A stretch of DNA of 60,295 nt. It comes from a virus. The stretch covers positions 1-60,295 of the IMG/VR virus record IMGVR_UViG_3300031972_003003. One strand, written 5' to 3'. Position 1 is the stretch's first letter. Each line of letters opens with the position of its first letter. Under the pieces are notes generated by a model. It was not told the origin of the DNA, searched no databases, and saw only the letters and a program-made list of their open reading frames with translations. Position numbers and translations under genes: made by a program. This document shows positions 27,501 to 55,889 of this stretch, piece after piece.

Positions 27501-30500
27501 TGAAGGAATAAATTATATTGAAGTAGGATTTTCTCCCTCAAATCAAATAAATGATGATATTATATCAGAGCTAGGTGGATTTAATATTGAAGATTATATA
27601 GGTGATCCTAGATTAGCCTCTTCTAGCTTAAATTATTATCCTGCTTTAAATGATTTAAGAGATAAATTTTTCGAAAAATATTTAAAAAATTATGAAGTTT
27701 TAGATTTTATTAGATTAATTAAGAATTTTGATAATTCTTTATTTAAAATGATAAAAGATTTTACTCCTATAAGAAACTCTTCCGCTACTGGTGTAATAAT
27801 AAAACAACACCTTCTAGAAAGACAAAAATATCCTGAACCTGTAATGACATTTACGAATGTAAGTAAAACAGGATCGATATTACCATCATCTAAAAATTTT
27901 ATAACGGGATCTAGCGACTTTCCACAATATTCAACCTCTGGATCCTCTATATATAAATTTAGCGGAGGTACTGGAGGATCATTTGAGGTATTTAATAGTA
28001 CTGCCTTTCATCCATACGGTCCTAACGGAACAGGGCCCGATAATAGATTTGATATAACTCAATCACTATCTGAATCTATTATATTCCAATCAGGAAGTAC
28101 TGAAAGAATTTATACTAATCAAGATGAATTTTATGATGGTATTTTCCCTGGAACTAATATAATAGTAACAACTCAATCCTTAAATCCAGGTTGCTTACAG
28201 TTTTCTAATATAAATACCGAAGGTGTTGAAGTTGAGCATGAATATGATAGATTTGTATATAGACAACAAAGCTGTTCATTAGATAGATTTGAAAATCCTA
28301 ATACAGCTCCTCGTACTGGGGAAATATTTTTCTTTAAAAAATTCGGTCAAAATAAATTTACTAATATTAAGATATCTAATACAACTAAAGCTGGTATAGA
28401 TATTTCAAACGTATTAACGCAAATAACTACACTAGCTTTTGATTTTTCTGGTATAAATCAAAGTATAGCTGTAGATTTTGTACAAAGTGGTCAAGGATTT
28501 ACTGAATATGAAGTAGTATCACCATTTAGTACTTACGATATATCCAACTTTACATCTAATTTTTTAAATTATTCAGCTTCAGTTGAAAAAACATCTTCAT
28601 TTCATTTAGTAAAAATTGCAGATCAAGGAACAGTACCATCCTCATTTACTGAAACTATTATTATTGATAATTTTGATATTGAAAATGATCCAAGCGGACT
28701 TTTAAATAGTCAAAGTGGTATATATACATCACCATTAACTAATAATAGAAGACTTAATTTTACCTGTTCTATCTCAGGCTCTTATGCATTTACTAACAAT
28801 ACTACCGCAAATATACAGTATGGTGTAAAAGTAGGGTTAAAAAATATAACAAGAAACGAAATATTAAAAAGTAACGGATTTACAGTAGGATTAACTGCAG
28901 GAAATACCTTTACACAATCATTTGATTTTGATTTTAAAGAGGAACTTTTTCCACAACAAGCATTAGTTACAGGAGATCAAGTTGCAGTAGTAGTAGAAAC
29001 GGATTTTGATAATAATATGTTTGATTTATTTGGATCAAGCTCTTTATCAATCTCCTCTTCATTATTTGCTATTAATCAAAATGGAGTAACAAGTAATGGT
29101 CCAGTATCAACTATAACTTCTATTCAACCAGGATACTTATCTGATAACACACACTTCTTTAATCATTTTGATTGTCAACCACTACTAAATAATGTTTCAG
29201 AAAATACAACTTCAGGAATATTTTTTGATATAGATTATTCATCAGGAACAGTTTTACCAGTAAACTTTTTACAAATTTTAAACAGAACTGCTGTAAAAGC
29301 TCAAGTACAAGATTCTAATTATTTCTCTAAATCTTGGTCTAATATAAGATATAATGGAGTAAAATTAACTAGTGCTATATTAAATGAATATACCGCTGCC
29401 AATACTCTTGTACTTCCTGATGGTACAATATGGAAAGGAGATATATCGTTTGGTAAAGAACCTGTGATAGAACAAACTAAACCGAATTTTGGGTTTTTTA
29501 AATTATTAGTCCCAACCTCTCCTGAATTAGAAAAAGGAACTCAAGTTAAATTACAATATTTAATAAATAAACAAGGTCAAGCATTTAAACCATTATTAAA
29601 TTCTCCATCATTCTTTGATGTGGAAGGAACATATGAAACTAATAATTTAGTAGATATAGCTCTTAATGATAGTTTTCAAACTGATGGAGGAAACTTTCCA
29701 ACTAATGCAGCAGCTGGTATAAATTTAGATAATTTTAATACTCAAGCTAGAGTTATAAGAGGAGCTAGAAGAGTAGATCCAATCCTAACTACTCAATTTG
29801 CATCTATATTTGATGGAAGTGTTGGTGAAGAATTTACAGGATCTATTAACTTTACTAATCCATCAGGATTAGATACCAACTTTAGCTTTCAAGGTGGAAA
29901 ATTTGCTGATACAACTTACAATCCAACATCCAACCCAAGCACAGGGATCTTAACAGTAAGCTGCTCTAATGAGGGATACGATCCAGCAGGACTATACGAC
30001 CACCCAAATAGTATATGGGAAAATACTACTGGAGATAGATTTAATCTAACACCAATACGCTTTAGGTTTCAAGGTGCAGTACTAAACAGTACAACAGCAA
30101 CATCTAATATATCTATTGAATGGATAAGAACCGGCGTACCAAATGTATTTTTTGGATTAACTAATATACCTGCAAATACTTCTTTAATATTTAATGATGG
30201 TAGTGTTGCAGCTGGAGATCCTTTAGCAGTACCTGATTTAGTAACTCCATATATTTTTCCTGCAGCAGGGGATCAGGTTAGAGTTAGACTAGAATTTACT
30301 AGTTTAGGAGTTGTTAATTTACAAAATACTAATTTTTACGGAGAACCTGAACAACTTCCAGTAGTGGCACTTACAGGAAGTTTCTGGGAAACAGGAAGCG
30401 CGTTTCCTAACAGTACACAACTTACATCCTCTAGAGATTTAGCTCAATATTATAATACATCAACTCAAGTACAGTATCCAGAATCAACATTTAAACCTAT

Positions 30501-30843
30501 TAATGAAATATTTACTATTAAATCAGGAGATCAATTTAGATTTTTAGGATCAGAAAATAATGTACATACAGTAAGTAATGTATCAATAATTAATCAAGGT
30601 GCTGAAACAGGTAAAATATTAGTTGATATTCAACCACCTATTGGTAATGGATTAAATTTAGATAAATTTTTAATTAGAAGATTTAATAAAGATGGTACGT
30701 CAGTAATATTAGATCTTAATCCTCCTAACTCAGGATTTGGTACAACAAGTGGAGTAGTAAAAAATGTTACAGTAAATGAAGAAGTAGAAAGTAATATTAA
30801 TGTTATACTATCAGATTTAGTTAAGGATGGTACTATAAATTAA
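24562..30843 (+). CDS. Giant tail/fibre structural protein, 2093 aa
   Basis: This is the largest protein of the window. The N-terminal 600 residues contain a conserved-looking stretch (YKKIYHNVPYLLRSKGTKTG, then LISLYGIPETILQVNEFGAK) that resembles the tail-protein-I style region of baseplate proteins. Residues about 658-850 look like a LamG/concanavalin-type sandwich (VEYRFKST, then WWSVMLQYHSSSNTFELYSG, then SGSVQEVRYWINTLSES), a likely carbohydrate-binding unit. The remainder is Ser/Thr/Asn-rich beta structure. Length and composition indicate a baseplate-periphery or long-fibre protein used in host recognition. It is the centre of the late tail block. Confidence 0.7.
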   Translation: MSRISIELLKDLSGVSGSFSFSGNDDLQYNATQNIKAQVSEETYVEYVLSDPENNTISVVDYYNNYFIDSDGETLTVNLENDILTYFNVLSGEYIVEYNVYNKKCGSSSEKNFFINEISPSRTEIRADSSVIDDFVLADKTLQFLNEREQSTYFKEFLLNFGNNNLIAGVNIALDTTSDNTQILIKLKNPLPNDFDINSQFWIVEQIGANPNYLIEFSPDIREPLTVGIPLSGPNLNLIDRDLTSKETFTATLESLETTNLPSSSIYQLNSVISSSGININLDYNKFEEFVFFSSATERLKNFFYKISLLQDYSSSLNTANSTANNTSTTSHIFRDKINQLVSNFDNYEKFLYYESGSNSWPKVNDTPPFQLHVTSSTEVLQWYGSLDEQSSNYGGILLSASLYDNLNRNNLLYSIPEFIRLDPNNKQYEVFISMIGQHYDNIWTYTKDITKKFDADNRINFGISKDLVADAIKDFSLKIYENNFSTYDLYSAFTGFPQDSSSLGVTGLSDFPPLIYGFSSFGSGLYGPLPLGTQLVTNLVTASNDIIPIDDINKRTYKKIYHNVPYLLRSKGTKTGLKSLISLYGIPETILQVNEFGAKDKVSGNDWDFYRKIYNKALFISGSSSPDNMINTQWANHDNDNGLNPDWGISPLVPRTVEYRFKSTLDPNTLPSQSNIRQSTFTILDSNISSTSSSVSVVLEYNGSGSYTGSYSGSIMDPRNNYADLTLYVSGSSQYYSSSINLPFLNKDWWSVMLQYHSSSNTFELYSGNKIYNGGNGTKLGFTGSTTITVPGADDTLCWRSGSLARIGASKNSYNFAPGITGSSELSGSVQEVRYWINTLSESVWHNHIMNPLSIENGVLTGSESARESLAFRTREGEDYSIKGTLTNTISGSSIHPKVTGSLITTASFISGGNKNSFYNTTGLYKSNSETQFLNQPVVGIKNRVTDRIRVENLEFPQGNALSPYRRIEQNNYSSRSFTEGINYIEVGFSPSNQINDDIISELGGFNIEDYIGDPRLASSSLNYYPALNDLRDKFFEKYLKNYEVLDFIRLIKNFDNSLFKMIKDFTPIRNSSATGVIIKQHLLERQKYPEPVMTFTNVSKTGSILPSSKNFITGSSDFPQYSTSGSSIYKFSGGTGGSFEVFNSTAFHPYGPNGTGPDNRFDITQSLSESIIFQSGSTERIYTNQDEFYDGIFPGTNIIVTTQSLNPGCLQFSNINTEGVEVEHEYDRFVYRQQSCSLDRFENPNTAPRTGEIFFFKKFGQNKFTNIKISNTTKAGIDISNVLTQITTLAFDFSGINQSIAVDFVQSGQGFTEYEVVSPFSTYDISNFTSNFLNYSASVEKTSSFHLVKIADQGTVPSSFTETIIIDNFDIENDPSGLLNSQSGIYTSPLTNNRRLNFTCSISGSYAFTNNTTANIQYGVKVGLKNITRNEILKSNGFTVGLTAGNTFTQSFDFDFKEELFPQQALVTGDQVAVVVETDFDNNMFDLFGSSSLSISSSLFAINQNGVTSNGPVSTITSIQPGYLSDNTHFFNHFDCQPLLNNVSENTTSGIFFDIDYSSGTVLPVNFLQILNRTAVKAQVQDSNYFSKSWSNIRYNGVKLTSAILNEYTAANTLVLPDGTIWKGDISFGKEPVIEQTKPNFGFFKLLVPTSPELEKGTQVKLQYLINKQGQAFKPLLNSPSFFDVEGTYETNNLVDIALNDSFQTDGGNFPTNAAAGINLDNFNTQARVIRGARRVDPILTTQFASIFDGSVGEEFTGSINFTNPSGLDTNFSFQGGKFADTTYNPTSNPSTGILTVSCSNEGYDPAGLYDHPNSIWENTTGDRFNLTPIRFRFQGAVLNSTTATSNISIEWIRTGVPNVFFGLTNIPANTSLIFNDGSVAAGDPLAVPDLVTPYIFPAAGDQVRVRLEFTSLGVVNLQNTNFYGEPEQLPVVALTGSFWETGSAFPNSTQLTSSRDLAQYYNTSTQVQYPESTFKPINEIFTIKSGDQFRFLGSENNVHTVSNVSIINQGAETGKILVDIQPPIGNGLNLDKFLIRRFNKDGTSVILDLNPPNSGFGTTSGVVKNVTVNEEVESNINVILSDLVKDGTIN

Positions 30844-34870: not shown

Positions 34871-35634
34871 GTATTTTAAAAAAATCTTATAATAGATTAT
34901 TAGAAATTTCCGACGATCACAAACAAATTACTTTAAAAGATTCTCGGTTTTATCAAAGAAATGGTGAATATTATCCATCAGTTACTTATGTTTTAGGATG
35001 TTATCCAAAAGGAAAGCATTTTGAAGATTGGTTAAAAAGAGTTGGATACTCTGCCGATTATATTGTTAAAAAAGCAGGAGAGCAAGGTACTCAAGTTCAC
35101 GATTTATGTGAAAGATACTTAAAAGGAGAAGAAATTAAATACTTTGCTGAGTTTTCAACACCATTATATGAACCATTAGTATGGGAAATGTTCTTAAGAT
35201 TCGTAGAATTTTGGGAAACTTTTAAACCTACTCTTATAGAAACAGAGGTATTTTTATTTACTGATAAGATGAAAGTAGCAGGAACTTGTGATTTAGTAGT
35301 AGAAATTAATGGTGAAAGATGGATACTTGATATTAAGACATCTAATACGATTGCATCTACTTACGAACTACAAACAGCTATTTATAAAGAAATGTATGAA
35401 GAGTGTTATGGTAAAGAAATTCATAGAACTGGTATCTTATGGTTAAAATCCAGTAAGAGAGGTCCTAGGAAAGATAAGTTTCAAGGGAAAGGATGGGAGA
35501 TTATTGAAAGTAAACGCTCATTTGAAGATAATATAGAAATCTACAAATGTGTTAAGAAGCTTTTTGATATAGAAAATCCTAAACCTGAACCATTAATGAA
35601 AAAATTAAATACTGTAATAAAACAAAGTGAATAG
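34867..35634 (+). CDS. PD-(D/E)XK exonuclease, RecB/Cas4-like, 255 aa
   Basis: The motif order of RecB-family nucleases is visible: GEQGTQVHDL with His78, VAGTCDLVVE with Asp142, ILDIKTS with Asp155 and Lys157, and YELQTAIYKEMY with Gln169. It probably trims or processes DNA ends in replication and recombination or degrades host DNA. No iron-sulfur cysteines of Cas4 are present. It starts in an ATGA overlap with primase and ends eight bases inside the 1614-codon gene. Confidence 0.8.
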   Translation: MSILKKSYNRLLEISDDHKQITLKDSRFYQRNGEYYPSVTYVLGCYPKGKHFEDWLKRVGYSADYIVKKAGEQGTQVHDLCERYLKGEEIKYFAEFSTPLYEPLVWEMFLRFVEFWETFKPTLIETEVFLFTDKMKVAGTCDLVVEINGERWILDIKTSNTIASTYELQTAIYKEMYEECYGKEIHRTGILWLKSSKRGPRKDKFQGKGWEIIESKRSFEDNIEIYKCVKKLFDIENPKPEPLMKKLNTVIKQSE

Positions 35635-38600
35635 TCTTTCTCAATTTTTAGTAGAGTCCATTATGGATGAAAAAGGAACGATAGTTTCTTATGGTGGAGG
35701 ATTTAAACCACCTCATAAAGGACATTTTAATGTAATCAAAAGGATGATTGAAAAATATCCTGATGCAGAAGTATACAATGTCTTTGTTGGTAGTAAAGAT
35801 AGAGGTGGTATTTCACAACAAAATGCATTAGATATTTGGAAAATATATAAAAAATATTTAAGCCCTAAAGTATCAGTAAGACAATCTCAAATACCAATTA
35901 CTGATGTTTATGGTACAGCTAAAGAAAATCCTGATAAGAACGTTATTTTTGCAGCCGGATCAAGAGGGGAAGAAGATGATAAAGAACTATTAAGGAGATT
36001 AAGCTCATATCATAAGTATGATAACCTCCAGTTAGATGTAGTTAGAGATGAAGGAGGTATTTCTGCAACTCAATTAAGAAAAACTAATCCTGATCAATTA
36101 GCTACCTTTTTTCCGGATGAATTATCAGATGAAGATTTAGAAATAGTAACAAATATAGTTCTAGGAGTTAACGAAGATACAACTCGTACTACTAAAAAAG
36201 GAGCCCCTGGTACATTTAAAGCAAAAATTACAAAAGCATATGGAGGGCCGGTTACTATAGCTAAAGCAAAAAAGTTTAAAAATAGAAAAGGAGCTACTGC
36301 TCATGATAAATCACAAGCTAATTGGTTTATTAATATGCATAGTGCTAAAGAAGGCTTTGATCCTAAGCTAGGAAAAGACCCATATGGCATTTCTCAATAT
36401 TCTAGAGAGATTATGGAAGCTAAAAAAGCATCTGAAATGGATCCCCTCTTTATAAAAGATATTGAAAAAAATTATGGTGAAGTTGATTTAGAAAATGACT
36501 ATTTTAATGATGAATTAACACGATATTATAAAACAACTGATATAAATAAAGAAACAGGAGGAATTACTCACGATGTTATTAATCTTCCATCCTTTAAAGA
36601 TTCATTTGATAAACTAAAATCAGCATTCGCTTCAATAAAACAACTACAAACTACCAAACAAGTAGCAAACGACCAGAAATTTCCTGAGTTAGTAGACAAA
36701 GTTAAAGATGCATTTAATAAATATCGTACACATTTACGTACAAAATACCCTTCTCAATATAAAACTATTAAAGAAGAAGTAGATAAAATGGTAAATCTTC
36801 TTAATGAAGGAGTTTATGATTCTATTACTACTGAAGTTTCTAGCGATATATTTAATGCTTGGAAAGAATTTCATGATAAATACCCTGACCAGGAGGAATT
36901 TATTTATCAAAAAAATTACGAACTACAAGATAAGAAAGGTCGCGATATGGAATTTGATCTTCAAGCAAAAATTGTATTTAAAGAAACAGAAGAAGGTATT
37001 TATAGTGTAGATGGAGGAGCAGAAGAAGGAGATGAAGACATTCAAGGAGAGCTCACTGTAATATTCCAAGTAGATCCAAGAGATTTACCTAATATGTGGT
37101 CTACTATTTCAATGGATCTTAAAGATGTAGTTAGACACGAAATAGAACATTTATCTCAAAGAGGATATAATGTTGTTTATAGTAAAGAAATGGAAGATAA
37201 TAGAGCATTAAGAGCTCTTATAAAAGCAAAACTACTACCAGATAAAGAATATTATAAGCTAGAAGATGAAATTCCCGCTATGCTGCAAGGAATGTACTTG
37301 AAAGCAAAAAAATCTAAAGTTCCTTTCAAAGATATAATACAAAACTACTTTGATAAAGTAGGATTATCTCAAGAAGATCGTAATGAAATCATTGCTCTCT
37401 GGAAGCAATACTTACCATCTTTATCTTTACCTCCTATCGATGAAATTATAAGAGAGCAAAAAGAAAAAATTAAGTTTAAAAGACCTAAATTAAATTATTC
37501 ATACACTTCTTTACAACCTTATATTGATAAGGAAACTATGGAAGAGCATTTTGATAAGCATTTTAAAGGATATACTGATAAACTTAACACAGAATTAGAA
37601 GAAAAGAATATTACTGTAGATGCTGAAGATCAAATTCAAGCAATACAAAAAATATTAAGCAAATATCCTAAAAATACTAAGATTAGAAATAATGGAGGTG
37701 GTTTTTACAATCACGTTTTATATTTTGAGAATATGACTCCTGATTACAAAGCTCCATCAGCTAATTTTAGAAAGATGTTAGAAGAAAACTTTAATTCTTT
37801 CTCAGAATTCAAAGAAAAATTTAAGGAAGCTGGGTTAGGTCAATTCGGATCAGGATGGGTTTTCTTAATTAAAAAAGGAAATAAGTTAGTTATCGAAGCT
37901 TATCCTAATCAAGATAATCCATATTTAGATAAAGACTTTGATGGTAAGATTTTGATTGCTATGGATGTTTGGGAACATTCTTATTATCTTAAACATAAAT
38001 CTAAAAGAGGTAATTATATAAATGATTTCTTTAGAGTAGTAGATTATAAAGTAGCTGAAGAAAGATTAGAGGAAGAAGAACTTTTAAACGAAAGTTTATG
38101 GGCAAATATAAATGCTAAGAAAAAAAGAGGTGAAAAATCTTCACATAAAAACTCTAAAGCTTACAAAGCTGCTGTAAAATCTGGAGAAAAGTTAAAAAAA
38201 AGTAAACTAAAAGAAGAAGATCCTAAAAAAGGTACTGGAAAAAAGCCTGAAGGATCTGGAAGACGTCTTTATACAGATGAAAACCCAAAAGATACAGTAA
38301 AAGTTAAGTTTAGAACTAAAGAAGATATAGTTGATACTCTAAATACAAAGACTTTTAAGTCTAAATCACATGCACGACAATCACAAGTTATTAACTTAAT
38401 ACATCAAAGAGTACGAGCTGCATACCAAAATGCAAAAGATCCAGATACAAAGAGTAGATTAAAGAGAGCTTTCGATTATATTACTGATAGAAAGGAAGCT
38501 TCTAAGGAAAAAACAAAAAGATTACAAAAGAACGAAGGTAAAAAAGGTGGTGGAAGAGGAAATGTTGGTTCTCGATATAGAGCTATAGAAAAAAGAGGAA

Positions 38601-40471
38601 ATAAATTTTATTATAGACAAGATGATCCATTAGGGGCAGGTGTAAGACAAGAATTTGGTCCATTTAAAACTAAAGCTGCTGCTTTAAGGAAAATGGGAGA
38701 ATTTCCTCCCGCTACAAGCTACAGAGATATAACTGAAGGGGTAGATAATCAATTATTAACTGAATTTATAACATTTTGTTGTAAAAAACTTGGTATTTCT
38801 GATAATTTTTTCGTATCTTTACATAGTAATAGGGATAAATTACAAACTTTAGCTCAATATAATCTAGTAGATAATTCTATAGATGTATATGTTAAAGATA
38901 GACTAATGGCTGATATTTTAAGAAGTATAGCACACGAATTAGTACACCATCAACAACTAGAAAATGGTGATATTGATTTAAATAACATGCCACAAGATAT
39001 TGGAGGTACTATTGAGGATGAAGCTAATGCAGTAGCTGGTCAATTAGTTAAAGAGTTTGGTTATGATAATCCAGAAATCTTCGAAAATATAGACCCAAAA
39101 GCTCAAAAAAAGCATCAAAAGAATCCAACAGCAGTTCCATTTGGTTCGGCATATTCTCCTGTTAAAGAAGATGGTAAGGAAGTATCTGATAAAAATATGG
39201 ATGATTATAAAAAATCAAACATTAAAGAGGATAACGGTAAACCAAAAGCTATTTTTATGGCTGGTCCTGCCGGATCAGGTAAAACTTATATTTTAAATAA
39301 ATTAGGAATAAAAGGATTTACTACAATTAATATAGATGATGAATTTGAAGAGCTTTTAAAGAAACAAATTGGTAAAAGTAGGTTTGCTGATATGTCTCCT
39401 GAAGAACTTTCACAAGCTGCAAAGTTAATGGGTCAAGCTCGAAAAACAACTTCTGCTAAATTAGATAAAGCAAGAGAATCTTTAACTGATGTTATTATTG
39501 ATGGAACTGGAGCAGCTTCTAATCCTATTCTTAAGAAGAAAAAACAATTTGAAGATCTAGGATATGAAACATTTATGATATTAATTTATGTTTCTCCTAT
39601 TACTTCATTAATGAGAAATAAAGGTAGAGATAGAAGTTTACCACCAAGTGCTATTTTACAAACCTGGAAAGGAGTAGCACAAAATATGGAGATTTATAAG
39701 AAAGAATTTGGAGATAATATCGTTCTAATTAATAACGATCCAGAAGATGCAGATAAAACATTTGATGATCCGCAAGAGATAATGAAACAATTTCCATCTC
39801 CAAAAGGTAAACCTAAAACTCCAGAAGAAATAGAAAAAGCTCGAGAAAAGAAAAAGAAACTAAATCAAGAGATACAAGATTTATTAAAAATAGAAAGAGA
39901 GTTTGATAATACAAAAGATGCTAAATCGAAAGTTATGAATTTTACAAAAGGTTTTATTAAAGAAGAAAAAGAAGGTAAGTTTAACATCTATTTAGATATG
40001 GATGGAGTAGTAGCTGACTTTGATCAACGATTTATAGATTTAAGTGGTATGCTACCAAAAGAGTTCGAAAATAAATTTGGTCGAAAAGAATTTTGGAACT
40101 TTATAGATGAAAAAAATAAATTAAAATTCTGGGTAGGAATACCAGAAATGTCAGATGCTAAGCAATTAGTAGATTATATTACTCCACACGGATTTCAAAT
40201 GTTAACAGCTCCTTCTATTAAAAAACAATCCTATTTAGGAAAAATGCTTTGGATTAAAAATCATGTAGGATCTTTATTTTCTTTTAAACCATATATTAAT
40301 TTTAAGAAAGCAAAAGAAAAGCATAATGTTAAATCTAATTTAACTCCTAACGATATACTTATTGATGATAGAGAAGATACTATTGATAGATGGAATGCAG
40401 CAGGCGGCACCGGTGTACATCACACTTCAGCTTCCTCAACTATAAATAAATTAAAGAAATTAGGTATATGA
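35627..40471 (+). CDS. Multi-enzyme candidate capsid-cargo polyprotein, 1614 aa
   Basis: The frame starts at GTG 35627 (MNSLSQFLVESIMDE, a cargo-type leader); ATG 35663 is an alternative. In order: residues 17-175 nucleotidyltransferase with HKGH at 30-33 and ISATQLR at 145-151; 184-387 basic and helical; 395-615 a domain with HEIEH at 504-508; 620-816 a full Mn-type superoxide dismutase with ligands His641, His696, Asp780, His784 and the NQD glutamine; 823-1038 basic modules (SLWANINAKKKRGEK, GSGRRLYTDENPKD); 1047-1180 with HELVHH at 1103-1108; 1205-1400 P-loop kinase, GPAGSGKT at 1213-1220, zeta-toxin-like; 1450-1614 HAD or deoxyribonucleotidase-like with DMDG at 1457-1460 and IDDRED near 1580. 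Short segments ending in Glu (VNE 183, LLNE 394, LLNE 822, LLTE 1046, IKE 1201, IKE 1446) separate the units like gp21 cut sites. Packaging and cleavage are inferred. Confidence 0.75.
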   Translation: MNSLSQFLVESIMDEKGTIVSYGGGFKPPHKGHFNVIKRMIEKYPDAEVYNVFVGSKDRGGISQQNALDIWKIYKKYLSPKVSVRQSQIPITDVYGTAKENPDKNVIFAAGSRGEEDDKELLRRLSSYHKYDNLQLDVVRDEGGISATQLRKTNPDQLATFFPDELSDEDLEIVTNIVLGVNEDTTRTTKKGAPGTFKAKITKAYGGPVTIAKAKKFKNRKGATAHDKSQANWFINMHSAKEGFDPKLGKDPYGISQYSREIMEAKKASEMDPLFIKDIEKNYGEVDLENDYFNDELTRYYKTTDINKETGGITHDVINLPSFKDSFDKLKSAFASIKQLQTTKQVANDQKFPELVDKVKDAFNKYRTHLRTKYPSQYKTIKEEVDKMVNLLNEGVYDSITTEVSSDIFNAWKEFHDKYPDQEEFIYQKNYELQDKKGRDMEFDLQAKIVFKETEEGIYSVDGGAEEGDEDIQGELTVIFQVDPRDLPNMWSTISMDLKDVVRHEIEHLSQRGYNVVYSKEMEDNRALRALIKAKLLPDKEYYKLEDEIPAMLQGMYLKAKKSKVPFKDIIQNYFDKVGLSQEDRNEIIALWKQYLPSLSLPPIDEIIREQKEKIKFKRPKLNYSYTSLQPYIDKETMEEHFDKHFKGYTDKLNTELEEKNITVDAEDQIQAIQKILSKYPKNTKIRNNGGGFYNHVLYFENMTPDYKAPSANFRKMLEENFNSFSEFKEKFKEAGLGQFGSGWVFLIKKGNKLVIEAYPNQDNPYLDKDFDGKILIAMDVWEHSYYLKHKSKRGNYINDFFRVVDYKVAEERLEEEELLNESLWANINAKKKRGEKSSHKNSKAYKAAVKSGEKLKKSKLKEEDPKKGTGKKPEGSGRRLYTDENPKDTVKVKFRTKEDIVDTLNTKTFKSKSHARQSQVINLIHQRVRAAYQNAKDPDTKSRLKRAFDYITDRKEASKEKTKRLQKNEGKKGGGRGNVGSRYRAIEKRGNKFYYRQDDPLGAGVRQEFGPFKTKAAALRKMGEFPPATSYRDITEGVDNQLLTEFITFCCKKLGISDNFFVSLHSNRDKLQTLAQYNLVDNSIDVYVKDRLMADILRSIAHELVHHQQLENGDIDLNNMPQDIGGTIEDEANAVAGQLVKEFGYDNPEIFENIDPKAQKKHQKNPTAVPFGSAYSPVKEDGKEVSDKNMDDYKKSNIKEDNGKPKAIFMAGPAGSGKTYILNKLGIKGFTTINIDDEFEELLKKQIGKSRFADMSPEELSQAAKLMGQARKTTSAKLDKARESLTDVIIDGTGAASNPILKKKKQFEDLGYETFMILIYVSPITSLMRNKGRDRSLPPSAILQTWKGVAQNMEIYKKEFGDNIVLINNDPEDADKTFDDPQEIMKQFPSPKGKPKTPEEIEKAREKKKKLNQEIQDLLKIEREFDNTKDAKSKVMNFTKGFIKEEKEGKFNIYLDMDGVVADFDQRFIDLSGMLPKEFENKFGRKEFWNFIDEKNKLKFWVGIPEMSDAKQLVDYITPHGFQMLTAPSIKKQSYLGKMLWIKNHVGSLFSFKPYINFKKAKEKHNVKSNLTPNDILIDDREDTIDRWNAAGGTGVHHTSASSTINKLKKLGI

Positions 40472-41582: not shown

Positions 41583-42254
41583 ATGAAACTAATACAAGCA
41601 TATAAACAAATAATAAGAGAAGATAAAACCTGCCCACCAGCTACTCAAGATTTAGATCTTAATCTAAAAAATCGTAATAAAGCTTTTAAAGAATATAATT
41701 ACGGTCCAGCAGATCCAAGATTAGATCTTAAATTAGATGTTGATGTATCATCTATTAAATTTGATAAAAATAGATTATATACAGATGCTCAAGGGGAAGA
41801 TATTTTTTTAAGTGAAGATGAGTTAAAAGAAAAAGGTAATTATACCTATTGGAAAAAATTAGCTGATGTTTATAATCAAGAAAGTATAAACGAATCTTTA
41901 CAAATGAGATGTGGTAATTGTGCTGCATTTGTTATTACTTCAGAAATGAAAGCTTGTATTGAAAAAGGTATATCTGATGTAGAATCTGCATTAACTGAAA
42001 AAGCAGGAGAATTAGGTTACTGTCAATTTTTAAAATTTAAATGCGCAGCTGCTCGAACCTGTCAATCATGGGTTGGTGGAGGACCAATTAAAGATGAAGA
42101 AGTTGAAGAACGCAAATTAACTAAAAAAGAAAAGAAGGGATTAAGAAAATTAGAAAAAGATATCCCAATGAAAAGTTTTAAAAAGCAGTATGGTAAAGAT
42201 GCTGAAGATATTTATTATGGTACGCTAACTAATTTAGCAAAGAAAAAATATTAA
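41583..42254 (+). CDS. Candidate prohead cargo protein with Cys cluster, 223 aa
   Basis: The leader MKLIQAYKQIIRED is of the cargo type. Residues about 105-165 hold a cysteine cluster: MRCGNCAAF, then ACIEKG, then GYCQFLKFKCAAARTCQSW and GGGP. This spacing resembles a small iron-sulfur (HiPIP-like) or zinc domain that I recall seeing in phage head regions. A C-terminal piece (MKSFKKQYGKDAEDIYYGTL, then NLAKKK) forms a basic helix pair. If packed in the virion it would bring a redox or metal centre into the host. The metal type cannot be told from sequence. Confidence 0.55.
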   Translation: MKLIQAYKQIIREDKTCPPATQDLDLNLKNRNKAFKEYNYGPADPRLDLKLDVDVSSIKFDKNRLYTDAQGEDIFLSEDELKEKGNYTYWKKLADVYNQESINESLQMRCGNCAAFVITSEMKACIEKGISDVESALTEKAGELGYCQFLKFKCAAARTCQSWVGGGPIKDEEVEERKLTKKEKKGLRKLEKDIPMKSFKKQYGKDAEDIYYGTLTNLAKKKY

Positions 42255-42258
42255 AAAA

Positions 42259-42762
42259 ATGGCACAAGATAACTTTAACATCGGTAAATTCTTAAAAGAA
42301 TCAGTAAAAAACTCTTATACTAAACAAGTAGCAGGAGAAGAGAAAAAAGAATTATTAAATGAAAATTTCGTTGGTTTAGAACCTATTAATACTATTCCTA
42401 CTAGAAATAAAGAAGATTATGAATTAGCATTTTCTAAATTTTTAGGAGAAGAAAAAGAAGAAACTCACGAAGAAATGGAAGAAGATTTACATGTAGTACC
42501 TGTTGGAGTAGATAATAAGATTGATCATTCTAATCATGGTATAGATGATGAAGGTAGAATGGCTAAATCTCAATTATATAAAATTGCTAAATATGCTTCT
42601 GAATTATATAAAATGATGGATGATAATACACAACTTGATGCATGGGTACAAGCTAAGCTTACAAAAGCATGTGATTACGTTGGTACTGTAAAACATTATC
42701 TAGAAGGAGAGGAAGCAATTGATATGTTAGGAGAAGAAAAAGAAGATGAACATAAAGGATAG
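42259..42762 (+). CDS. Candidate prohead core/cargo protein, 167 aa
   Basis: The start MAQDNFNIGKFLKESVKNSY is followed at residues 34-65 by a module (NENFVGLEPIN, then KEDYELAFSKFLGEE) that is repeated in the 51541 protein of the head operon. Several Glu-ending sites (LLNE, FLGEE) could be cut by gp21. The C-terminal half is helical (SQLYKIAKYASELYKMMDDN). The match to a protein encoded next to the prohead protease is the best evidence that this distant cluster belongs to the head. Confidence 0.6.
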   Translation: MAQDNFNIGKFLKESVKNSYTKQVAGEEKKELLNENFVGLEPINTIPTRNKEDYELAFSKFLGEEKEETHEEMEEDLHVVPVGVDNKIDHSNHGIDDEGRMAKSQLYKIAKYASELYKMMDDNTQLDAWVQAKLTKACDYVGTVKHYLEGEEAIDMLGEEKEDEHKG

Positions 42763-46230: not shown

Positions 46231-46899
46231 ATGCAACAACAACCACATAGATACGAAAAATTTAGAGTAATAAATACCATTTTAATAGTAGTATTAATTA
46301 TTGTTTTACTAATGAAAGGATGTGGGGATGGTAATGGAGGTCCTACTGAACCTGTTATTATTAGAGATACTACATCTGTGGTTACTTATGATACAGTTAC
46401 TAATGAAACAGTTAGTTACGTACCTCAATATTATGAGAGAGAAACAATAAAATATATTCATGATACAATCACCCAGATTGAATATAAAATTGAGCCAACT
46501 GATACGTCTGCCATTCTAGAAGATTACTTTGCTAAGTATTATTATGTGGATACTGTAATTCATACCGATAGTATTACTTTCATTGTATACGATACTATTA
46601 CTCAAAATCAAATAGCAGGTAGATCTTCTAAGTATAATATTTTATATCCTACTATTACAAATACAATTACTGAAAAGCATTATATTAATGCAAGAGAGCT
46701 ATATTTAGGATTTAATACAGGCTTTATAGTTAAACCCTTTAATTTAGCTAACGCTAATTTAGGAGTATTATTACGAACTAAAAGAAGATATATTATAGGA
46801 TTAAATGGAGGAGTTCAATTTAGTCATGATAATGGTAATTTTATAAATACTACACCTTATTTAGGAGTTAGTTATTATCAAAAACTTACAAAAAAATAG
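46231..46899 (+). CDS. Membrane-anchored envelope protein candidate, 222 aa
   Basis: Residues 13-29 (INTILIVVLIIVLLMKG) form a membrane helix, followed by CGDGNGG. The Cys could be lipidated but the lipobox is poor. A long Thr/Tyr/Asp-rich region with repeated DT and YDT steps follows (RDTTSVVTYDTVTNET, then YIHDTITQIEY), as in periplasm-spanning stalks. The last 70 residues (ARELYLGFNTGFIVKPFNLA, then YIIGLNGGVQFSHDNG, then YLGVSYYQK) look like strands of a small outer-membrane barrel. A spanin-like lysis or envelope protein is possible. It ends one base inside the terminase gene. Confidence 0.5.
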   Translation: MQQQPHRYEKFRVINTILIVVLIIVLLMKGCGDGNGGPTEPVIIRDTTSVVTYDTVTNETVSYVPQYYERETIKYIHDTITQIEYKIEPTDTSAILEDYFAKYYYVDTVIHTDSITFIVYDTITQNQIAGRSSKYNILYPTITNTITEKHYINARELYLGFNTGFIVKPFNLANANLGVLLRTKRRYIIGLNGGVQFSHDNGNFINTTPYLGVSYYQKLTKK

Positions 46900-48467
46900 T
46901 GTCGGATATTAAACAAATAATTAAGCAAGAATATATAAAGTGCGCAACTGATCCTGTACACTTTATGAAGAAGTATTGCTTTATCCAACACCCTCAAAGA
47001 GGTAAAATTAATTTTCATTTATATCCTTTTCAAGAAAGAGTAATGACATTATGGAAAGATAATCCATATTCTATTATTCTTAAATCAAGACAGTTAGGTA
47101 TTTCAACATTAGGTGCAGGATATGCATTATGGTTAATGTCTTTCTTTGAAAATAAAAATGTATTAGCATTAGCAACAACCCAGGCAACAGCACGTAACTT
47201 AGTTACTAAAGTGCAATTTATGTATAATAATTTACCTTCATGGTTAAAAGTTGATAATGTAGAAAATAATAAATTATCTTTAAGATTAAAGAATGGTTCA
47301 AGAATTCAAGCTAAATCTTCTTCTCCAGATGCAGCTCGTTCAGAAGCAGTATCTCTATTGATTGTTGATGAGGCTGCATTTATTGATAATATTGGTGAGA
47401 CCTGGGCAGCAGCTCAACAAACACTAGCAACAGGTGGTGGTGCATTAGTTTTATCTACTCCATATGGTGTAGGAAATTGGTTTCATAAAATGTGGGTTAG
47501 TGCACAAGAAGGTACTAATAATTTTTTACCTATAAAATTACCCTGGGATGTACATCCAGAAAGAGATCAAGAATGGAGAGATAGACAAGATTTATTATTA
47601 GGAGATCCTAAAAAAGCTGCTCAAGAATGCGATTGTGATTTTAATACTTCCGGTGATACAGTCTTTCCAGCTAATCAATTAACTCATATTACAGAAGAAA
47701 CTACCGTAAACCCACAAGAAAAAAGAGGTATTGATAAATCATTATGGGTATGGGAGCCGGTAGATTATTCTAAAAATTATATAGTAGCTGCTGATGTAGC
47801 GAGAGGAGATGGTCAAGATTACTCAGCATTTCATATTATTGATATAGCTTCTAATACTCAGGTTGCTGAATATAAAGGTAAGTTACCAACATTGGATTTT
47901 GGTAATTTATTAGTTTCTATTGCGACTGAGTATAATAATGCTTTATTAGTAGTAGAGAACTCAACTATTGGATGGGCAGTTATTCAAGCAATCCAACAAA
48001 GAGGATATAGAAATTTATATCATTCACCGAAGGGAGGTAGCGTAACGGTTGAATCTTTCTTTTCTGAATGGTCCGATCATAGTAAGCTTACCCCTGGGTT
48101 CTCAATGAATCTAAAAACTAGACCATTAGCTATCTCTAAATTTTTAGAATTTGTTAACGATAGAAGTGTTACTATTAAATCTAAAAGATTATTAGAGGAA
48201 ATGAAAACATTTGTATGGAGAAATGGAAAAGCTGCTTCACAAGAAGGATATAATGATGACTTAGTTATGTCATTTGCTATTGCAATGTTTATGAGAGATA
48301 TATCACTAGCTTATAAGTCACAATCCACTGATATGTCAAAAACTTTATTAAACGGAATAGTTAACAGTAAAAATAACAATATTTATACAAATAATAGTAT
48401 GGTAAGAAATCCATACGAAGTAGATTTAGATAAAGACAAAGGTCACGATATAAAGTGGCTTTTATAA
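46899..48467 (+). CDS. gp17: Terminase large subunit, T4 gp17-like
   Basis: The gene starts at GTG 46899, which overlaps the previous stop. The ATPase has SRQLGIST (63-70) as Walker A-like motif and LLIVDEAAF (153-161) as Walker B with its catalytic Glu. The RNase H-like nuclease half has AADVARGDGQDYSAFHI near residue 300 and VVENSTIG near 350. It pumps DNA into the prohead and cuts the concatemer. At 522 residues it is shorter than T4 gp17 (610). The portal gene follows after nine bases; in T4 the sheath and tube genes lie between the two. Confidence 0.95.
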   Translation: MSDIKQIIKQEYIKCATDPVHFMKKYCFIQHPQRGKINFHLYPFQERVMTLWKDNPYSIILKSRQLGISTLGAGYALWLMSFFENKNVLALATTQATARNLVTKVQFMYNNLPSWLKVDNVENNKLSLRLKNGSRIQAKSSSPDAARSEAVSLLIVDEAAFIDNIGETWAAAQQTLATGGGALVLSTPYGVGNWFHKMWVSAQEGTNNFLPIKLPWDVHPERDQEWRDRQDLLLGDPKKAAQECDCDFNTSGDTVFPANQLTHITEETTVNPQEKRGIDKSLWVWEPVDYSKNYIVAADVARGDGQDYSAFHIIDIASNTQVAEYKGKLPTLDFGNLLVSIATEYNNALLVVENSTIGWAVIQAIQQRGYRNLYHSPKGGSVTVESFFSEWSDHSKLTPGFSMNLKTRPLAISKFLEFVNDRSVTIKSKRLLEEMKTFVWRNGKAASQEGYNDDLVMSFAIAMFMRDISLAYKSQSTDMSKTLLNGIVNSKNNNIYTNNSMVRNPYEVDLDKDKGHDIKWLL

Positions 48468-48476
48468 ATTTAAAAT

Positions 48477-50435
48477 ATGGCTGATATTAATAATCCAATG
48501 CCACCATACGAAGATGGTAAGAATGAAGGTCAAATGGGACCTCAAACAGGTATTTTTGCAACTCTTAGAAGACTATTTTCTACTGATGTAGTAATTAGAA
48601 ATGCAGGTGGTAAAGAATTAACTGTAGTTGATAGTGATCATATCCAATCATATGGTAAATATGATACTAATGCATTAGTTGATAGATTTAATAGAATTTA
48701 TACATCTGGTCCTACTTCATTATATGGATATCAAAGTAATTTTAATTATCAATTATTAAGACCACAATTATACTCTGAATATGATGTAATGGATACTGAT
48801 GCTATTATAGCTTCAGCCCTTGATATAGTAGCTGATGAATCAACTTTAAAAAATGATATGGGGGAGGTATTGCAAATACAATCTTCCGATGATGATATTC
48901 AACAAATATTATATAACTTATTTTATGATATATTAAATATTGAATTTAATATGTGGCCATGGGTAAGAAATATGTGTAAATATGGAGACTTTTTTCTTAA
49001 ATTAGAAATATCTGAAAAATATGGTGTATATAATGTTATACCATATTCAGCATTTCATATTGAAAGGCAAGAAGGATGGAATAGAGATAATCCATCAGAG
49101 GTAAGATTTAAGTATTTTCCACAAGGCATATCTCAAGGTCAAACAGGATACTATAATGTAATGGGAGCAGGATCAGAGGATAATAAAAACCAAATTATTC
49201 TCGATAACTATGAAGTAGCTCACTTTAGACTATTAACTGATACAAATTACTTACCATATGGTAGAAGTTATTTAGAACCTGGTCGCAAATTATTCAAGCA
49301 ATATACTTTAATGGAGGATGCAATGTTAATCCACCGTATAGTAAGAGCTCCTGAAAAAAGAATTTTTTATATTAATATTGGTAATATTGCTCCTAACGAA
49401 GTTGATAATTTCATGCAAAAAGTAGTTTCAAAAATAAAAAGAACTCCTTATATGGATGAACAAACTGGAGAATATAATCTAAAATACAATTTACAAAATC
49501 AATTAGAAGATTTCTATATACCAGTGCGTGGTAATGATGCTGCTACAAAAATTGAAACAACTAAAGGTTTAGAATATGACGGTATTCAAGATGTAGCTTA
49601 TTTAAGAGAAAAATTATTTGCTGCATTAAAAGTTCCTAAAGCATTTATGGGTTATGATGAAAACTTAGATGGTAAAGCAACTTTAGCAGCACAAGATATT
49701 AGATTTGCAAGAACAGTTGAAAGGATTCAAAGAATTATAGTGTCTGAACTATACAAAATAGCATTTGTTCATTTATATACATTAGGATATAGAGATGATA
49801 ATTTAACTAATTTTAAATTATCTGCAACTACTCCATCAATTATTTATGATCAGGAAAGAGTTGCACTACTAAAAGAAAAAGTAGACTTAGCAAATCAAAT
49901 AAAAGATAATAATCTATTACCAACTGATTGGATTTATGAAAATATATTCCATTTTGGAGAAGAAGAGTATCAAGAATATAGAGATTTACAAATCGAAGAT
50001 GCAAAGCGTAAGTTTAGATTATCTCAAGTAGAAGCAGAAGGTAATGATCCTGTTAAAACTGGTAAATCGTATGGTACTCCTCATGATTTAGCATCATTAT
50101 ATGGTCCAGGAAGATATGGGCAAAAACAAGAAGTACCAAAAGGTTATGATGAAGAAAACCCAGAGGGTAGACCAAAAGAAAGAGCATCTACTATAGGTAC
50201 TCAAAATAATAACTTTGGTAGAGATCCGTTAGGAAGTGGTGGCGTTAAGAATGATGTAAATGATAATGGACGTATAAATCCTAATGCAAAGAAATTCAAA
50301 TTTAGTCAAGCAGAAGCTAAAGTAAATAATTTATCTAACAATGGTTTATTTAATCGTTTAGATTCTAAAAAACGCGTAATCTTAAAAGAAGAAGATGGGT
50401 TATTAGATGAAAATAATATTTTAAATAACGATTAA
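48477..50435 (+). CDS. gp20: Portal protein, T4 gp20-like
   Basis: A 652-residue portal protein. Typical blocks are LRPQLYSEYDVMDTDAIIAS, LDIVADEST, LPYGRSYLEPGRKLFKQYTL, RIVRAPEKRIFYINIGN and VPKAFMGYDENLDGKATLA. The dodecameric portal forms the DNA entry vertex and starts prohead assembly. The C-terminal 90 residues are hydrophilic and flexible. Gene order with terminase and protease supports the call. Confidence 0.95.
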   Translation: MADINNPMPPYEDGKNEGQMGPQTGIFATLRRLFSTDVVIRNAGGKELTVVDSDHIQSYGKYDTNALVDRFNRIYTSGPTSLYGYQSNFNYQLLRPQLYSEYDVMDTDAIIASALDIVADESTLKNDMGEVLQIQSSDDDIQQILYNLFYDILNIEFNMWPWVRNMCKYGDFFLKLEISEKYGVYNVIPYSAFHIERQEGWNRDNPSEVRFKYFPQGISQGQTGYYNVMGAGSEDNKNQIILDNYEVAHFRLLTDTNYLPYGRSYLEPGRKLFKQYTLMEDAMLIHRIVRAPEKRIFYINIGNIAPNEVDNFMQKVVSKIKRTPYMDEQTGEYNLKYNLQNQLEDFYIPVRGNDAATKIETTKGLEYDGIQDVAYLREKLFAALKVPKAFMGYDENLDGKATLAAQDIRFARTVERIQRIIVSELYKIAFVHLYTLGYRDDNLTNFKLSATTPSIIYDQERVALLKEKVDLANQIKDNNLLPTDWIYENIFHFGEEEYQEYRDLQIEDAKRKFRLSQVEAEGNDPVKTGKSYGTPHDLASLYGPGRYGQKQEVPKGYDEENPEGRPKERASTIGTQNNNFGRDPLGSGGVKNDVNDNGRINPNAKKFKFSQAEAKVNNLSNNGLFNRLDSKKRVILKEEDGLLDENNILNND

Positions 50436-51541: not shown

Positions 51542-52329
51542 TGAGCTCATTACAGAATCAATATAATAGTATAAAAAAAGGAAAAGGAAATAAAGATGGA
51601 CTATTAAGAGAATCCAAAAGATTATTTCCAAATTATATTCCTAACTCTGCTAATTATAATCAAGCTATAGATATTTTAAAATCTAGACAAATTATAAATG
51701 AAAACGTTGTAGGACTTCAACCTATTAATCAACTTCAACCTGCTAAAAAAGAAAACTTCGAAAAAGCATTCGAAAAATTTTTAGCAGAAGAAACAGTAGA
51801 TGCAAAAGCAACTGAAAGAAAACAATCTAAATTAGTGGATGAGCCTTTATCACATCAGTATCCATATCAAGAAAAAGATAGATTAGATAATCAAATATTT
51901 GATCAAATTATGTCTGGATATTATACTGAGATGAAAGATCCTAAAAATACTGATAAAACTGAAGAAGAATTAAAAGCAATTGTTCTTAAGAATCTTGAAA
52001 AAGATCCATTATATTATACTAAAGAAGCACAATTTGGTATTAAAGGTCTCGGATATAGAGATGACGTACCTGGTGCAGGTTTAGTAAAAGAACCAACTGG
52101 AAAGTATAAAGCTTCTGGATATGGTGATCTAAAAGAGAGTAAACAAGTAACTGAAGCTTCTTCAATGCCAAGCGAAGAATTATTATCTTTATTAGATGAT
52201 ATGTTAGAAGATTTAGTTGATAATTCTGTTGACGCAGAACAAGCAGTAAAAAAAGTAATCAGTATGAATCCTGCACTTAAGCATTATGAAACTGCACTTT
52301 TACAATTAGCTGAACCAAAATTCCCATGA
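51541..52329 (+). CDS. Prohead core protein candidate, 262 aa
   Basis: A 262-residue protein between the small prohead protein and the protease. Residues 53-84 (NENVVGLQPIN, then KKENFEKAFEKFLAEE) are the module shared with the 42259 protein. The C-terminal 60 residues are acidic and helical (EELLSLLDDMLEDLVDNSVD). Sites such as FLAEE and LKESK could be cut by gp21. Position corresponds to internal core proteins gp67/gp68 of T4, though sequence similarity is not evident. Confidence 0.6.
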   Translation: MSSLQNQYNSIKKGKGNKDGLLRESKRLFPNYIPNSANYNQAIDILKSRQIINENVVGLQPINQLQPAKKENFEKAFEKFLAEETVDAKATERKQSKLVDEPLSHQYPYQEKDRLDNQIFDQIMSGYYTEMKDPKNTDKTEEELKAIVLKNLEKDPLYYTKEAQFGIKGLGYRDDVPGAGLVKEPTGKYKASGYGDLKESKQVTEASSMPSEELLSLLDDMLEDLVDNSVDAEQAVKKVISMNPALKHYETALLQLAEPKFP

Positions 52330-52916
52330 AGCAAGTTTTAGTAGAAACGATTAATTTTTCACCTGTTAGAGCACTAACAGAGTCAAAATCTCATAGAGGT
52401 AATCCTATAGTAGAAGGAATACTTGCTACAGTAGAGACTGTAAACGAGAACGGTCGTTTTTATAAAAAGTCTATTTGGGATAGAGAAGTAGATAAATATA
52501 AAGTACTAATAGCGGAAAAAAGAGCATTAGGAGAATTAGATCATCCTGATTCTATGAATATAAATTTAAAAAATGTTTGTCATAATATTGTAGATTTATA
52601 TTGGGATGGTAAAAATATAATGGGTAAATTAGAAATCTTACCAACACCATCAGGTCAAATAGTAAAAAATCTAATTGATAATGGAATTACTTTAGGAGTA
52701 TCTTCTAGAGGAACAGGTACATTACAACAAAGAGATGGTGTAAATGAAGTACAAGATGACTTTGAGCTATTATGTTGGGACTTTGTATCTACACCATCTA
52801 ATCCAGGATCATTTGTACATCCTATAAGAGAATCAAAAGAATTTAAATCTACTCCTATTACAATACATAATACTATTTCTGAACTATTATGTATGCACGG
52901 TCAGTGCGAAATATAA
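52326..52916 (+). CDS. gp21: Prohead protease, T4 gp21-like
   Basis: A 196-residue serine protease of the herpesvirus-like/prohead fold. His73 lies in GELDHPDS and the nucleophile is Ser126 or Ser127 in LGVSSRGTG, followed by DFVSTPSNPGS. It matures the prohead by cutting the scaffold, the capsid N-terminus and, in T4, packed internal proteins after Glu in L/I-x-E sites. In this phage its substrates probably include the many cargo leaders noted elsewhere. The start overlaps the previous stop (ATGA). Confidence 0.93.
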   Translation: MKQVLVETINFSPVRALTESKSHRGNPIVEGILATVETVNENGRFYKKSIWDREVDKYKVLIAEKRALGELDHPDSMNINLKNVCHNIVDLYWDGKNIMGKLEILPTPSGQIVKNLIDNGITLGVSSRGTGTLQQRDGVNEVQDDFELLCWDFVSTPSNPGSFVHPIRESKEFKSTPITIHNTISELLCMHGQCEI

Positions 52917-54176: not shown

Positions 54177-55889
54177 ATGGCAAATTTAATTAACAACTTG
54201 TTAGAAAGCTCTGCTTCAGGATGGAAATCCATGCAGGGTGATGCGGCGCGCTTAGCCGGCAAGTGGGCTAAAACTGGTCTACTTGAAGGAATTGAAGGCG
54301 AAGTAGAGCGCAATAATATGGCTATGATTCTTGAGAATCAGGCTAAACAACTCGTAGTTGAGCAATCATCTACACAAGGAGGTTCAGCATTTACATCTAA
54401 TGCAGGAACTGGTGCTAACTGGGCAGGAATTGCTCTTCCGTTAGTAAGAAAGGTATTCGGACAAATTTCTTCTAAAGAGTTTGTTTCCGTACAACCTATG
54501 AACTTACCTTCAGGTCTTGTATTCTTTCTAGACTTCCAATATGGTGGTACAGGAGATGCAACAAATAAAACATTTACAGCTGGAGGTAATGTATTCGAAT
54601 CAGGATCTATGTATGGTCTTACTGATTCAGGAGGAGGTGATCCATCGGAAGGTCTTTATGGAGCAGGTAGATTTGGTTATTCATTAAACCAGTTCTCTTC
54701 TTCAAACTTGACTTTCCATTCTGGATCTACTTCAACTTATGCTGTTAATACAGCATCTCTTGCTGTTTGGGCTGACGTTCAGTATAATTCTGATCTTTCA
54801 GCTTCAGTTGCAGCAGGTGAACTTACTAAGATTGTTGTAGATGCATCTGATTTAACTACTCCAGATCTTAGAGCAGTAAGATCATTTGTACTTACATCTG
54901 GTTCAAGCTTAACAAATATTGCTAATTCATTACCAAAGTATACTACTACTAGAGATAATGATACTAAAGTAGTATTTGTATTTGATAATCAGATCCGTAC
55001 GATTATGAAAGATACTCGTACTGATTATAACTGTTTCTTCTATAAGCAGCCTGAAGATAATTCAAGAGGTGATTTTGAAGATAATTCAGGTGCAGGTCGT
55101 CCTAATGCAAGAACACAAGCTACTGATGCATTAAATATTCCTCAAGTAGATGTGAAGCTTAAGTCTGAAGGTATTATTGCTAAGACTCGTAAGCTTAAAG
55201 CACAATGGACTCCTGAATTCGCTCAAGATTTGAATGCTTATCAAGCACTTGATGCAGAAGCTGAATTGACATCTATTATGTCTGAGTATATTGCACTTGA
55301 GATTGATCTTGAGATTCTTGATATGCTTATTGTAGATGCAACTGCTGCTGACGAGTATTGGTATGCTACTAATAACCGAGCTCTAAATTCAACTAAAACT
55401 GGATACGATGATGCTGGATTTTATAATACTCAAGGTCAATGGTTCCAAACTTTAGGAACTAAGATGCAAAAAGTATCTAATAAAATCCATCAGAAAACGT
55501 TAAGAGGAGGAGCTAATTTTGTAGTAACTTCACCAACTGTAGCAACAATTCTTGAGTCTATCCCAGGATTTGCTTCTGCAGGTAATGGAGATGCTGCTGC
55601 AGCTACTTATGCTTTCGGTATTCAAAAAGTGGGACAACTTAATAACAGATATACTGTTTATAAGAACCCATATATGAATGAAGGATTAATCTTAATGGGA
55701 TATAGAGGATCTCAATTCCTTGAAACTGGTGCTACTTTTGCTCCATATATTCCATTGATCATGACTCCTTTAGTATACGATCCAGAAACCTTCACACCAC
55801 GTAAAGGTCTATTGACTCGATATGCTAAGAAAATGATTCGTCCAGAATTTTATGGTCGTATCTTTGTCAACGACTTGAACGTACTTTAA
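54177..55889 (+). CDS. gp23: Major capsid protein, T4 gp23-like
   Basis: A 570-residue HK97-fold capsid protein. The N-terminal 62 residues are the removable part, with a likely gp21 cut in LVVE at Glu62, close to Glu65 in T4. Later blocks (ALPLVRKVFGQISSKEFVSV, QPMNLPSGLVFFLDFQYG, RKLKAQWTPEFAQDLNAYQA, and the C-terminal TPRKGLLTRYAKKMIRPEFY) are classic gp23 signatures. Codon choice is less AT-biased than neighbours, as expected of a very highly expressed gene. A strong terminator follows. Confidence 0.96.
   Translation: MANLINNLLESSASGWKSMQGDAARLAGKWAKTGLLEGIEGEVERNNMAMILENQAKQLVVEQSSTQGGSAFTSNAGTGANWAGIALPLVRKVFGQISSKEFVSVQPMNLPSGLVFFLDFQYGGTGDATNKTFTAGGNVFESGSMYGLTDSGGGDPSEGLYGAGRFGYSLNQFSSSNLTFHSGSTSTYAVNTASLAVWADVQYNSDLSASVAAGELTKIVVDASDLTTPDLRAVRSFVLTSGSSLTNIANSLPKYTTTRDNDTKVVFVFDNQIRTIMKDTRTDYNCFFYKQPEDNSRGDFEDNSGAGRPNARTQATDALNIPQVDVKLKSEGIIAKTRKLKAQWTPEFAQDLNAYQALDAEAELTSIMSEYIALEIDLEILDMLIVDATAADEYWYATNNRALNSTKTGYDDAGFYNTQGQWFQTLGTKMQKVSNKIHQKTLRGGANFVVTSPTVATILESIPGFASAGNGDAAAATYAFGIQKVGQLNNRYTVYKNPYMNEGLILMGYRGSQFLETGATFAPYIPLIMTPLVYDPETFTPRKGLLTRYAKKMIRPEFYGRIFVNDLNVL

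Follow-up and report, generated by a model that had tools for sequence, protein, structure and literature searches.

A superoxide dismutase module in a predicted head-cargo polyprotein of a T4-like phage

Organization of the locus

The window, i.e., the whole stretch of DNA analyzed (60,295 bases, the complete source record, with 29.8% GC), is a T4-like contig. Its head genes comprise the terminase large subunit (T4 gp17-like, 46899..48467; phrog_2, 1.5e-54), the portal (gp20-like, 48477..50435; phrog_213, 7.4e-57), a gp21-like prohead protease of the Peptidase_S77 family (52326..52916; PF03420, 1.4e-30; phrog_207, 8.3e-61), and the major capsid protein gp23 (54177..55889; PF07068, 8.1e-73), which has LLE/S and VVE/Q in its N-terminal region (here and below, a slash marks a predicted cut). 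The protease is the presumed cutting enzyme for the sites described below. These genes, and all parts of the polyprotein located below, are on the + strand. A count of T4-type late promoters gave 27 against 26.4 expected by chance, so that a signal of late expression was absent.

The gene studied is an ORF of 1,614 amino acids (35627..40471) with a GTG start, in support of which many homologues can be aligned with it from residue 1 onward. The earlier note had called its product a head-cluster protein; this holds only approximately, since ca. 6 kb separate the end of the ORF from the downstream terminase-portal-gp21-gp23 block. The protein begins with a stretch resembling a capsid-targeting sequence (35627..35656, MNSLSQFLVE/S, with the E at position 10; homologues start with MNQLTKFLI or MNSLTKVLLE) and continues as a string of modules. 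The first is an NMN-adenylyltransferase-like nucleotidyltransferase (NTase; 35681..36160) with the motif GGGFKPPHKGH, assigned by alignment, by a match to TIGR00125 that stays under the cut-off of the model (8.6e-4), and by a homologue in Flavobacterium phage immuto annotated as NadR-like. After LLNE/G (residue 394) follows a module of the “GRYDS” type with the HExxH motif HEIEH (36809..37432), a motif that suggests a metallopeptidase-like function.

The superoxide dismutase (SOD) domain comes next, between a 5' joint with two [LI]xE sites, PIDE(606)/IIRE(610)/Q (37433..37456), and a 3' joint with RLEE(816) and LLNE(822)/S (38066..38092). Behind it are a DPKKGTGKKP module after LKE(863)/E (38216..38737; site found in 20/20 joints), a second HExxH module (AHELVHH, 38765..39085) between LLTE(1046) and IFE(1153), for which the Pfam search gave only 0.15 with Peptidase_M78, a P-loop/zeta-toxin-like kinase after IKE(1201)/D (39230..39946; PF06414, 7.1e-10), and a HAD 5'-3' deoxyribonucleotidase after IKE(1446)/E (39965..40465; phrog_2643, 6.5e-24). 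Elsewhere in the window, an ORF of 2,093 amino acids (24562-30843) had no Pfam match at E up to 0.01.

Among cultured phages, the closest relative found was immuto, in which, as in the window, a NAD-synthetase-like gene is followed by the primase, the exonuclease, the NTase polyprotein, and the nucleotidase, with further genes interspersed. In immuto the nucleotidase is a separate tagged gene (gp87, N-terminus MKKVMGNLADLLLE/E). Given this kinship and the common gene order, a Bacteroidota host is likely. No paper on virion proteomics of immuto was found in the open-licence PMC literature.

The SOD domain and its relatives

The earlier note, made from the sequence alone, had reported a complete manganese-type SOD here, and the domain is indeed complete, spanning residues 617 to 813 (37475..38065). 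Sod_Fe_C (PF02777; 9.6e-29, 99.9 bits, cut-off 20.9, residues 711-813) and Sod_Fe_N (PF00081; 2.3e-18, 66.9 bits, cut-off 27, residues 617-704) were the two top Pfam matches of the entire 1,614-residue protein. The four metal ligands, H641 (37547), H696 (37712), D780 (37964), and H784 (37976), aligned exactly as the note had numbered them, and the glutamine of the NQD motif (Q762), Y649, and E783 are kept as well. Among NCBIfam models the best was PRK10925, “superoxide dismutase [Mn]” (1.3e-42), ahead of the Fe model (1.4e-31); the scores with both models are under the equivalog cut-offs. The NQD glutamine and the higher score of the Mn model suggest manganese as the metal.

A phmmer search against PDB chains returned 157 distinct sequences with E-values of 0.001 or less, led by the Clostridioides difficile SOD 3tjt (3.3e-47), which was also the top Foldseek match (TM 0.88, E 8.9e-19) of an AlphaFold2 model of the domain (203 residues, mean pLDDT 83.8, pTM 0.84). 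The model is weakest at its residues 171 to 180 (block mean 53), directly past the last two ligands. Together, the Pfam, phmmer, and Foldseek matches rule out a chance resemblance. Selection on the domain is purifying, with dN/dS of 0.04 to 0.13 against eight close relatives (dS up to 1.33, near saturation in some pairs), and this, with the kept ligands, rules out a degenerate SOD.

Phage-encoded SODs had been described as rare in the earlier note, which has to be corrected, as they are not especially rare: a single scan of IMG/VR with two patterns yielded 109 confirmed relatives, from which 80 viral loci were retained (70 standalone, 8 long or fused, and 2 truncated). The four ligands (H, H, D, H), Tyr34, and Glu170 are present in 81/81 phage rows of the alignment, near-identical rows included. 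Two classes could be distinguished. The canonical Mn-type class, with 49 rows and including the SOD of the window, also keeps the gate His and Gln146, whereas in a short divergent class of 32 rows (L153-L182 and L023), to which jumbo phage PA5oct belongs, the gate His is replaced by Leu and Gln146 by His while the ligands are kept.

Beyond the window, SOD was found in four other polyproteins (L002/L107, L003, L004, and L009/L112), each time with differing neighbors, and two further loci (L117 and L118) have it fused behind a HAD module. In such varied company, SOD appears to act like a movable cassette. Two of these polyproteins contain a plastocyanin-like copper domain (PF00127) alongside the SOD (L003:1428-5660, 4e-16; L004:3062-6829, 6.8e-14); L003 also has a GNAT-like domain close to its open 3' end, and L009 a weak RegB-like match.

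As in bacterial Fe/Mn SODs (PF00081/PF02777), the fold, the ligands, and the Mn-type glutamine are present. The domain of the window is 38 to 47% identical to SODs at 80 bacterial genome loci, nearly all labeled Bacteroidota or Chlorobiota. Unlike the bacterial enzymes, the phage copies bear a propeptide or a fusion, and in a quick tree they lie apart from the bacterial SODs sampled (SH-aLRT 99, a single change separating the two sides). The earlier note had pointed to Bacteroidota SODs as the comparison to make; the sampled phage SODs were not nested inside the sampled bacterial ones, mostly labeled Bacteroidota. A recent gain of the gene from the sampled hosts is thus unsupported. Because the bacterial side is a narrow, biased best-match sample (21 rows plus three outgroups) with some long branches, the tree speaks against that scenario only.

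Capsid-targeting-like tags and prohead-protease sites

In T4, a short N-terminal capsid-targeting sequence gives cargo entry into the head, 10 residues being enough for IPIII, and gp21 cleaves after L/I-X-E, as described in PMC9026906. The start of the window polyprotein, MNSLSQFLVE, has the form of such a tag, i.e., a propeptide of ca. 10 residues ending in [LI]xE. Among standalone phage SODs, [LI]xE was found between the start and the SOD core in 41/41 sequences dereplicated at 95% identity and in 19/19 at 80%, extending to sequences with only ca. 25% identity (examples are MIKLTDILKE/V, MKLMSILTE/A, MKIKDILFE/Q, and MELRDHINLVE/A). When the start was set by a nearest-Met rule, 40 of 44 distinct extensions retained the motif; three of the four exceptions have an inner Met past the tag and one lacks an ATG. 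With the E required at positions 6 to 15, the motif was present in 43/45 distinct extensions, against 4 for [LI]xK, 4 for xD, 3 for xS, 8 for xN, and 8 for xQ. Only 3 of 79 bacterial SODs had [LI]xE; by eye, most of them lack any extension and a few have an apparent signal peptide. The SOD of Vibrio phage 2.275.O (L024:2992-3558) has no N-terminal tag; it carries an additional C-terminal tail, MLDE/SVNIRHLINFISK, which could be the counterpart of the tag at that end.

The tag is also frequent around these genes. Among ORFs of at least 100 amino acids in viral SOD loci, 173/539 had it at positions 6 to 15, compared with 10.9% at positions 36 to 45 and with 6.7% of bacterial ORFs (n = 254), while control letters at the same viral N-termini gave 19% for [LI]xK and 8 to 12% for the others. 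From these counts the phages seem to bear many tagged cargo genes, which suggests large head-cargo repertoires near viral SOD genes. A tag common to the SOD and its neighbors at the same locus was weak as a signal, with at least 5/9 identical residues in 6/24 loci and in 0/24 controls.

Tags are found on related polyproteins and on their modules as well. Of 57 NTase-led polyproteins, 37 have space for a tag before the NTase, with [LIV]xE there in 37/37 and [LI]xE in 36. The other 20 have no N-terminal tag when only ATG starts are considered (18 begin at the NTase and 2 have other sequence ahead); they include two of the five SOD-bearing polyproteins (L107/L002 and L003) and that of the cultured immuto, and either use another route or have a misread start. 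Several modules occur singly with tags of their own, namely, the kinase (MISLVQLLKE/), the nucleotidase (MYKLTDLYKQIKE/), the “GRYDS”-type HExxH module (MISLKNIIVE/GRYDS), and, in contig L115, the DPKKG module (MIKLVDILKE/ITE/GDPK).

Within the window chain there are 18 [LI]xE sites in 1,614 residues. The earlier note had described the SOD as joined to other enzymes, with prohead-type sites on its flanks, and T4-type [LI]xE is indeed found at both ends, at 606/610 and 816/822. Cutting there would yield a mature SOD of residues 611 to 822 (37457..38092). Two more sites lie inside the domain (659 and 720), so that the release of an intact SOD requires the fold to shield them. A depletion of internal sites, considered as evidence of cleavage, was absent in the SOD class of the window (2.08 observed against 1.95 in shuffled sequences) and slight in the short class (1.3 against 1.64). 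Contig L022 has the same 3' joint, with 825/825 residues identical to the window; a search for a second contig across the 5' junction found none.

The pattern at the SOD recurs among the 57 NTase-led polyproteins. In these chains, [LIV]xE occurred within 14 amino acids before the start of a module in 71/75 cases, against 18.8% of random windows, and in 66/70 when identical upstream stretches were merged. Control motifs were not enriched at the joints ([LIV]xK, 0.19 against 0.24; [LIV]xD, 0.13 against 0.20), polar-x-E stood at 0.59 against 0.51, and shuffling within the same 14-mers gave a mean of 22.9 and a maximum of 40 [LI]xE (2,000 rounds) where 56 were observed. The control motifs and the within-window shuffles rule out Glu-rich linkers as the source of the signal. 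Since the module motifs were written after the sequences had been read and the polyproteins are related rather than independent, we treat these counts as a strong pattern and not as a clean probability.

The SOD as candidate head cargo

Cargo genes of T4 are, as far as is known, single. The genes described here resemble those for the T4 internal head proteins (IPI, IPII, IPIII, and Alt) in their propeptide of ca. 10 residues ending in L/I-x-E, in the presence of a gp21-family protease and a gp23 head in the same genome, and in the unrelated content of the tagged genes. They differ in that the cargo is a metabolic enzyme and that a single chain unites many cargoes, separated by cut sites. For a foreign enzyme, delivery has a precedent in T4 (PMC9026906).

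With good confidence, we propose that the SOD is enzymatic capsid cargo, freed by gp21 and probably injected. The reading of packaging and cutting is based on the intact SOD, the tag-like N-termini, the joint sites, and the matching protease in the genome; the tags on standalone SODs and the sites at polyprotein joints strengthen the idea of packaging in particular, which the earlier note had raised in suggesting that the virion may carry an active SOD against oxidative defenses on entry. What we infer for the SOD, namely, packaging, cleavage, injection, activity, and a benefit, would proceed as follows. The N-terminal T4-type capsid-targeting sequence would pull the entire 1,614-residue chain into the prohead core, where the gp21-type protease would cleave after [L/I]-x-E in the linkers, inside the head, liberating the SOD (about residues 611 to 822) and the remaining modules. 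These would be packaged alongside the DNA and, most likely, injected when the phage infects a cell, where the SOD would clear superoxide early in the infection.

A packaged SOD could alternatively guard the DNA inside the virion. In this form, the enzyme would stay with the packaged DNA and limit photochemical superoxide damage in sunlit water. Packaging and cutting are common to both readings, so the same tag and joint evidence applies, and the plastocyanin-like module in two related polyproteins would also fit; many T4 internal proteins, however, are ejected into the host (PMC9026906), and we regard a role confined to the virion as rather unlikely.

The chain might also be packaged and injected whole, with the SOD acting as a domain of an uncut protein. 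The polyvalent proteins of phages and conjugative elements are similar, with shuffled domains and predicted travel with the DNA (Iyer et al. 2017, PMC5512222), and the multiple disparate domains in shuffled order of the five SOD-bearing and 57 related chains match this published class. The word “superoxide” is absent from the main text of that article. The two HExxH modules inside the chain itself and the tag missing from 20/57 related chains would be compatible with an uncut protein too. Unlike polyvalent proteins, however, the joints here bear sites for a separate prohead protease, with the gp21 motif specifically and not the control motifs, the same modules exist singly with their own tags, and the matching protease is encoded in the window. 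We therefore find delivery of the uncut chain improbable.

Phage metabolic genes are common, and the SOD could be an ordinary metabolic enzyme of the infected cell, with the fusion and the tag motifs incidental. Leu/Glu-rich termini may fit a short motif by chance, and 32% of neighboring ORFs match it. Against such a coincidence, 41/41 standalone SODs are tagged compared with that 32% locally and with the 6.7% bacterial background, control motifs appear in only 3 to 8 of the 45 extensions, and the joints are specific for the gp21 motif, which makes this explanation quite doubtful. Finally, a structural or scaffold piece kept for its fold after losing catalysis would suit the sites at the joints and the cutting of head core proteins by T4 gp21 (PMC9026906), but it is very improbable given the ligands kept in 81/81 phage rows, the gate His and Gln146 in the 49 rows of the class of the window, and the strong purifying selection.

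Beyond this locus, we lean toward the view that an antioxidant enzyme in the head is a general strategy of T4-like and some jumbo phages, and that one lineage, probably infecting Bacteroidota, made its head cargo modular, as a polyprotein in which tagged effectors were strung together, co-packaged in equal copy number by one tag, and cut by the prohead protease before injection. Among the 41 SOD-bearing records, gp21 was found in 12 and gp23 in 11, all of them among those 12; a search for gp21 failed in the other 29, four of which exceed 100 kb. These absences can be explained, short of proof, by fragmentary records. The SOD of PA5oct-type jumbo phages (EST35_0261) has the four ligands, as in the window, and the N-terminus MNDSIKKYISIAE/A, although it belongs to the short divergent class with the replaced gate His (Leu) and Gln146 (His). 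Its record carries an ESI-MS/MS mark, which we take as weak support for a virion protein because ribonucleotide reductase, among other enzymes, is marked likewise.

Viruses of eukaryotes offer another comparison. Their Cu/Zn SODs have a fold unrelated to that of Fe/Mn SODs, and we know of no gp21 processing among them; the SOD of PBCV-1 is packaged in the virion. The phage enzymes resemble those of PBCV-1, Megavirus (also in PMC9270025), and an entomopoxvirus in being virus encoded and differ in metal type, the latter being Cu/Zn enzymes according to PMC7700475. The parts of the system are known (T4 internal proteins, polyvalent proteins, and Fe/Mn SOD) and their combination is new; neither a phage SOD described as head cargo nor a cargo polyprotein cut by gp21 turned up in searches of the open-licence PMC literature.

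If the cargo reading is true, phages would deliver a ready-made antioxidant enzyme at entry, linking infection to oxidative defense. The [LI]xE tags and joints would also provide a sequence rule by which metagenomes could be read directly for the cargo that uncultured T4-like phages carry in their heads, with the SOD and the plastocyanin-like, kinase, nucleotidase, HExxH, and NMN-adenylyltransferase-like modules as candidate early effectors. Other ORFs of the window have similar beginnings. Two adjacent, similar-looking ORFs (9307-9822 and 9819-10334) show the tag-like starts MKLFPLIKEIISE and MIKLTNILKEIISE, the second of which almost equals the tag MIKLTDILKE of some standalone SODs, and starts of the [LI]xE type or similar are present in the ORFs at 41583-42254, 42259-42762, 22112-22426, and 21086-21535, which are candidate head cargo as well.
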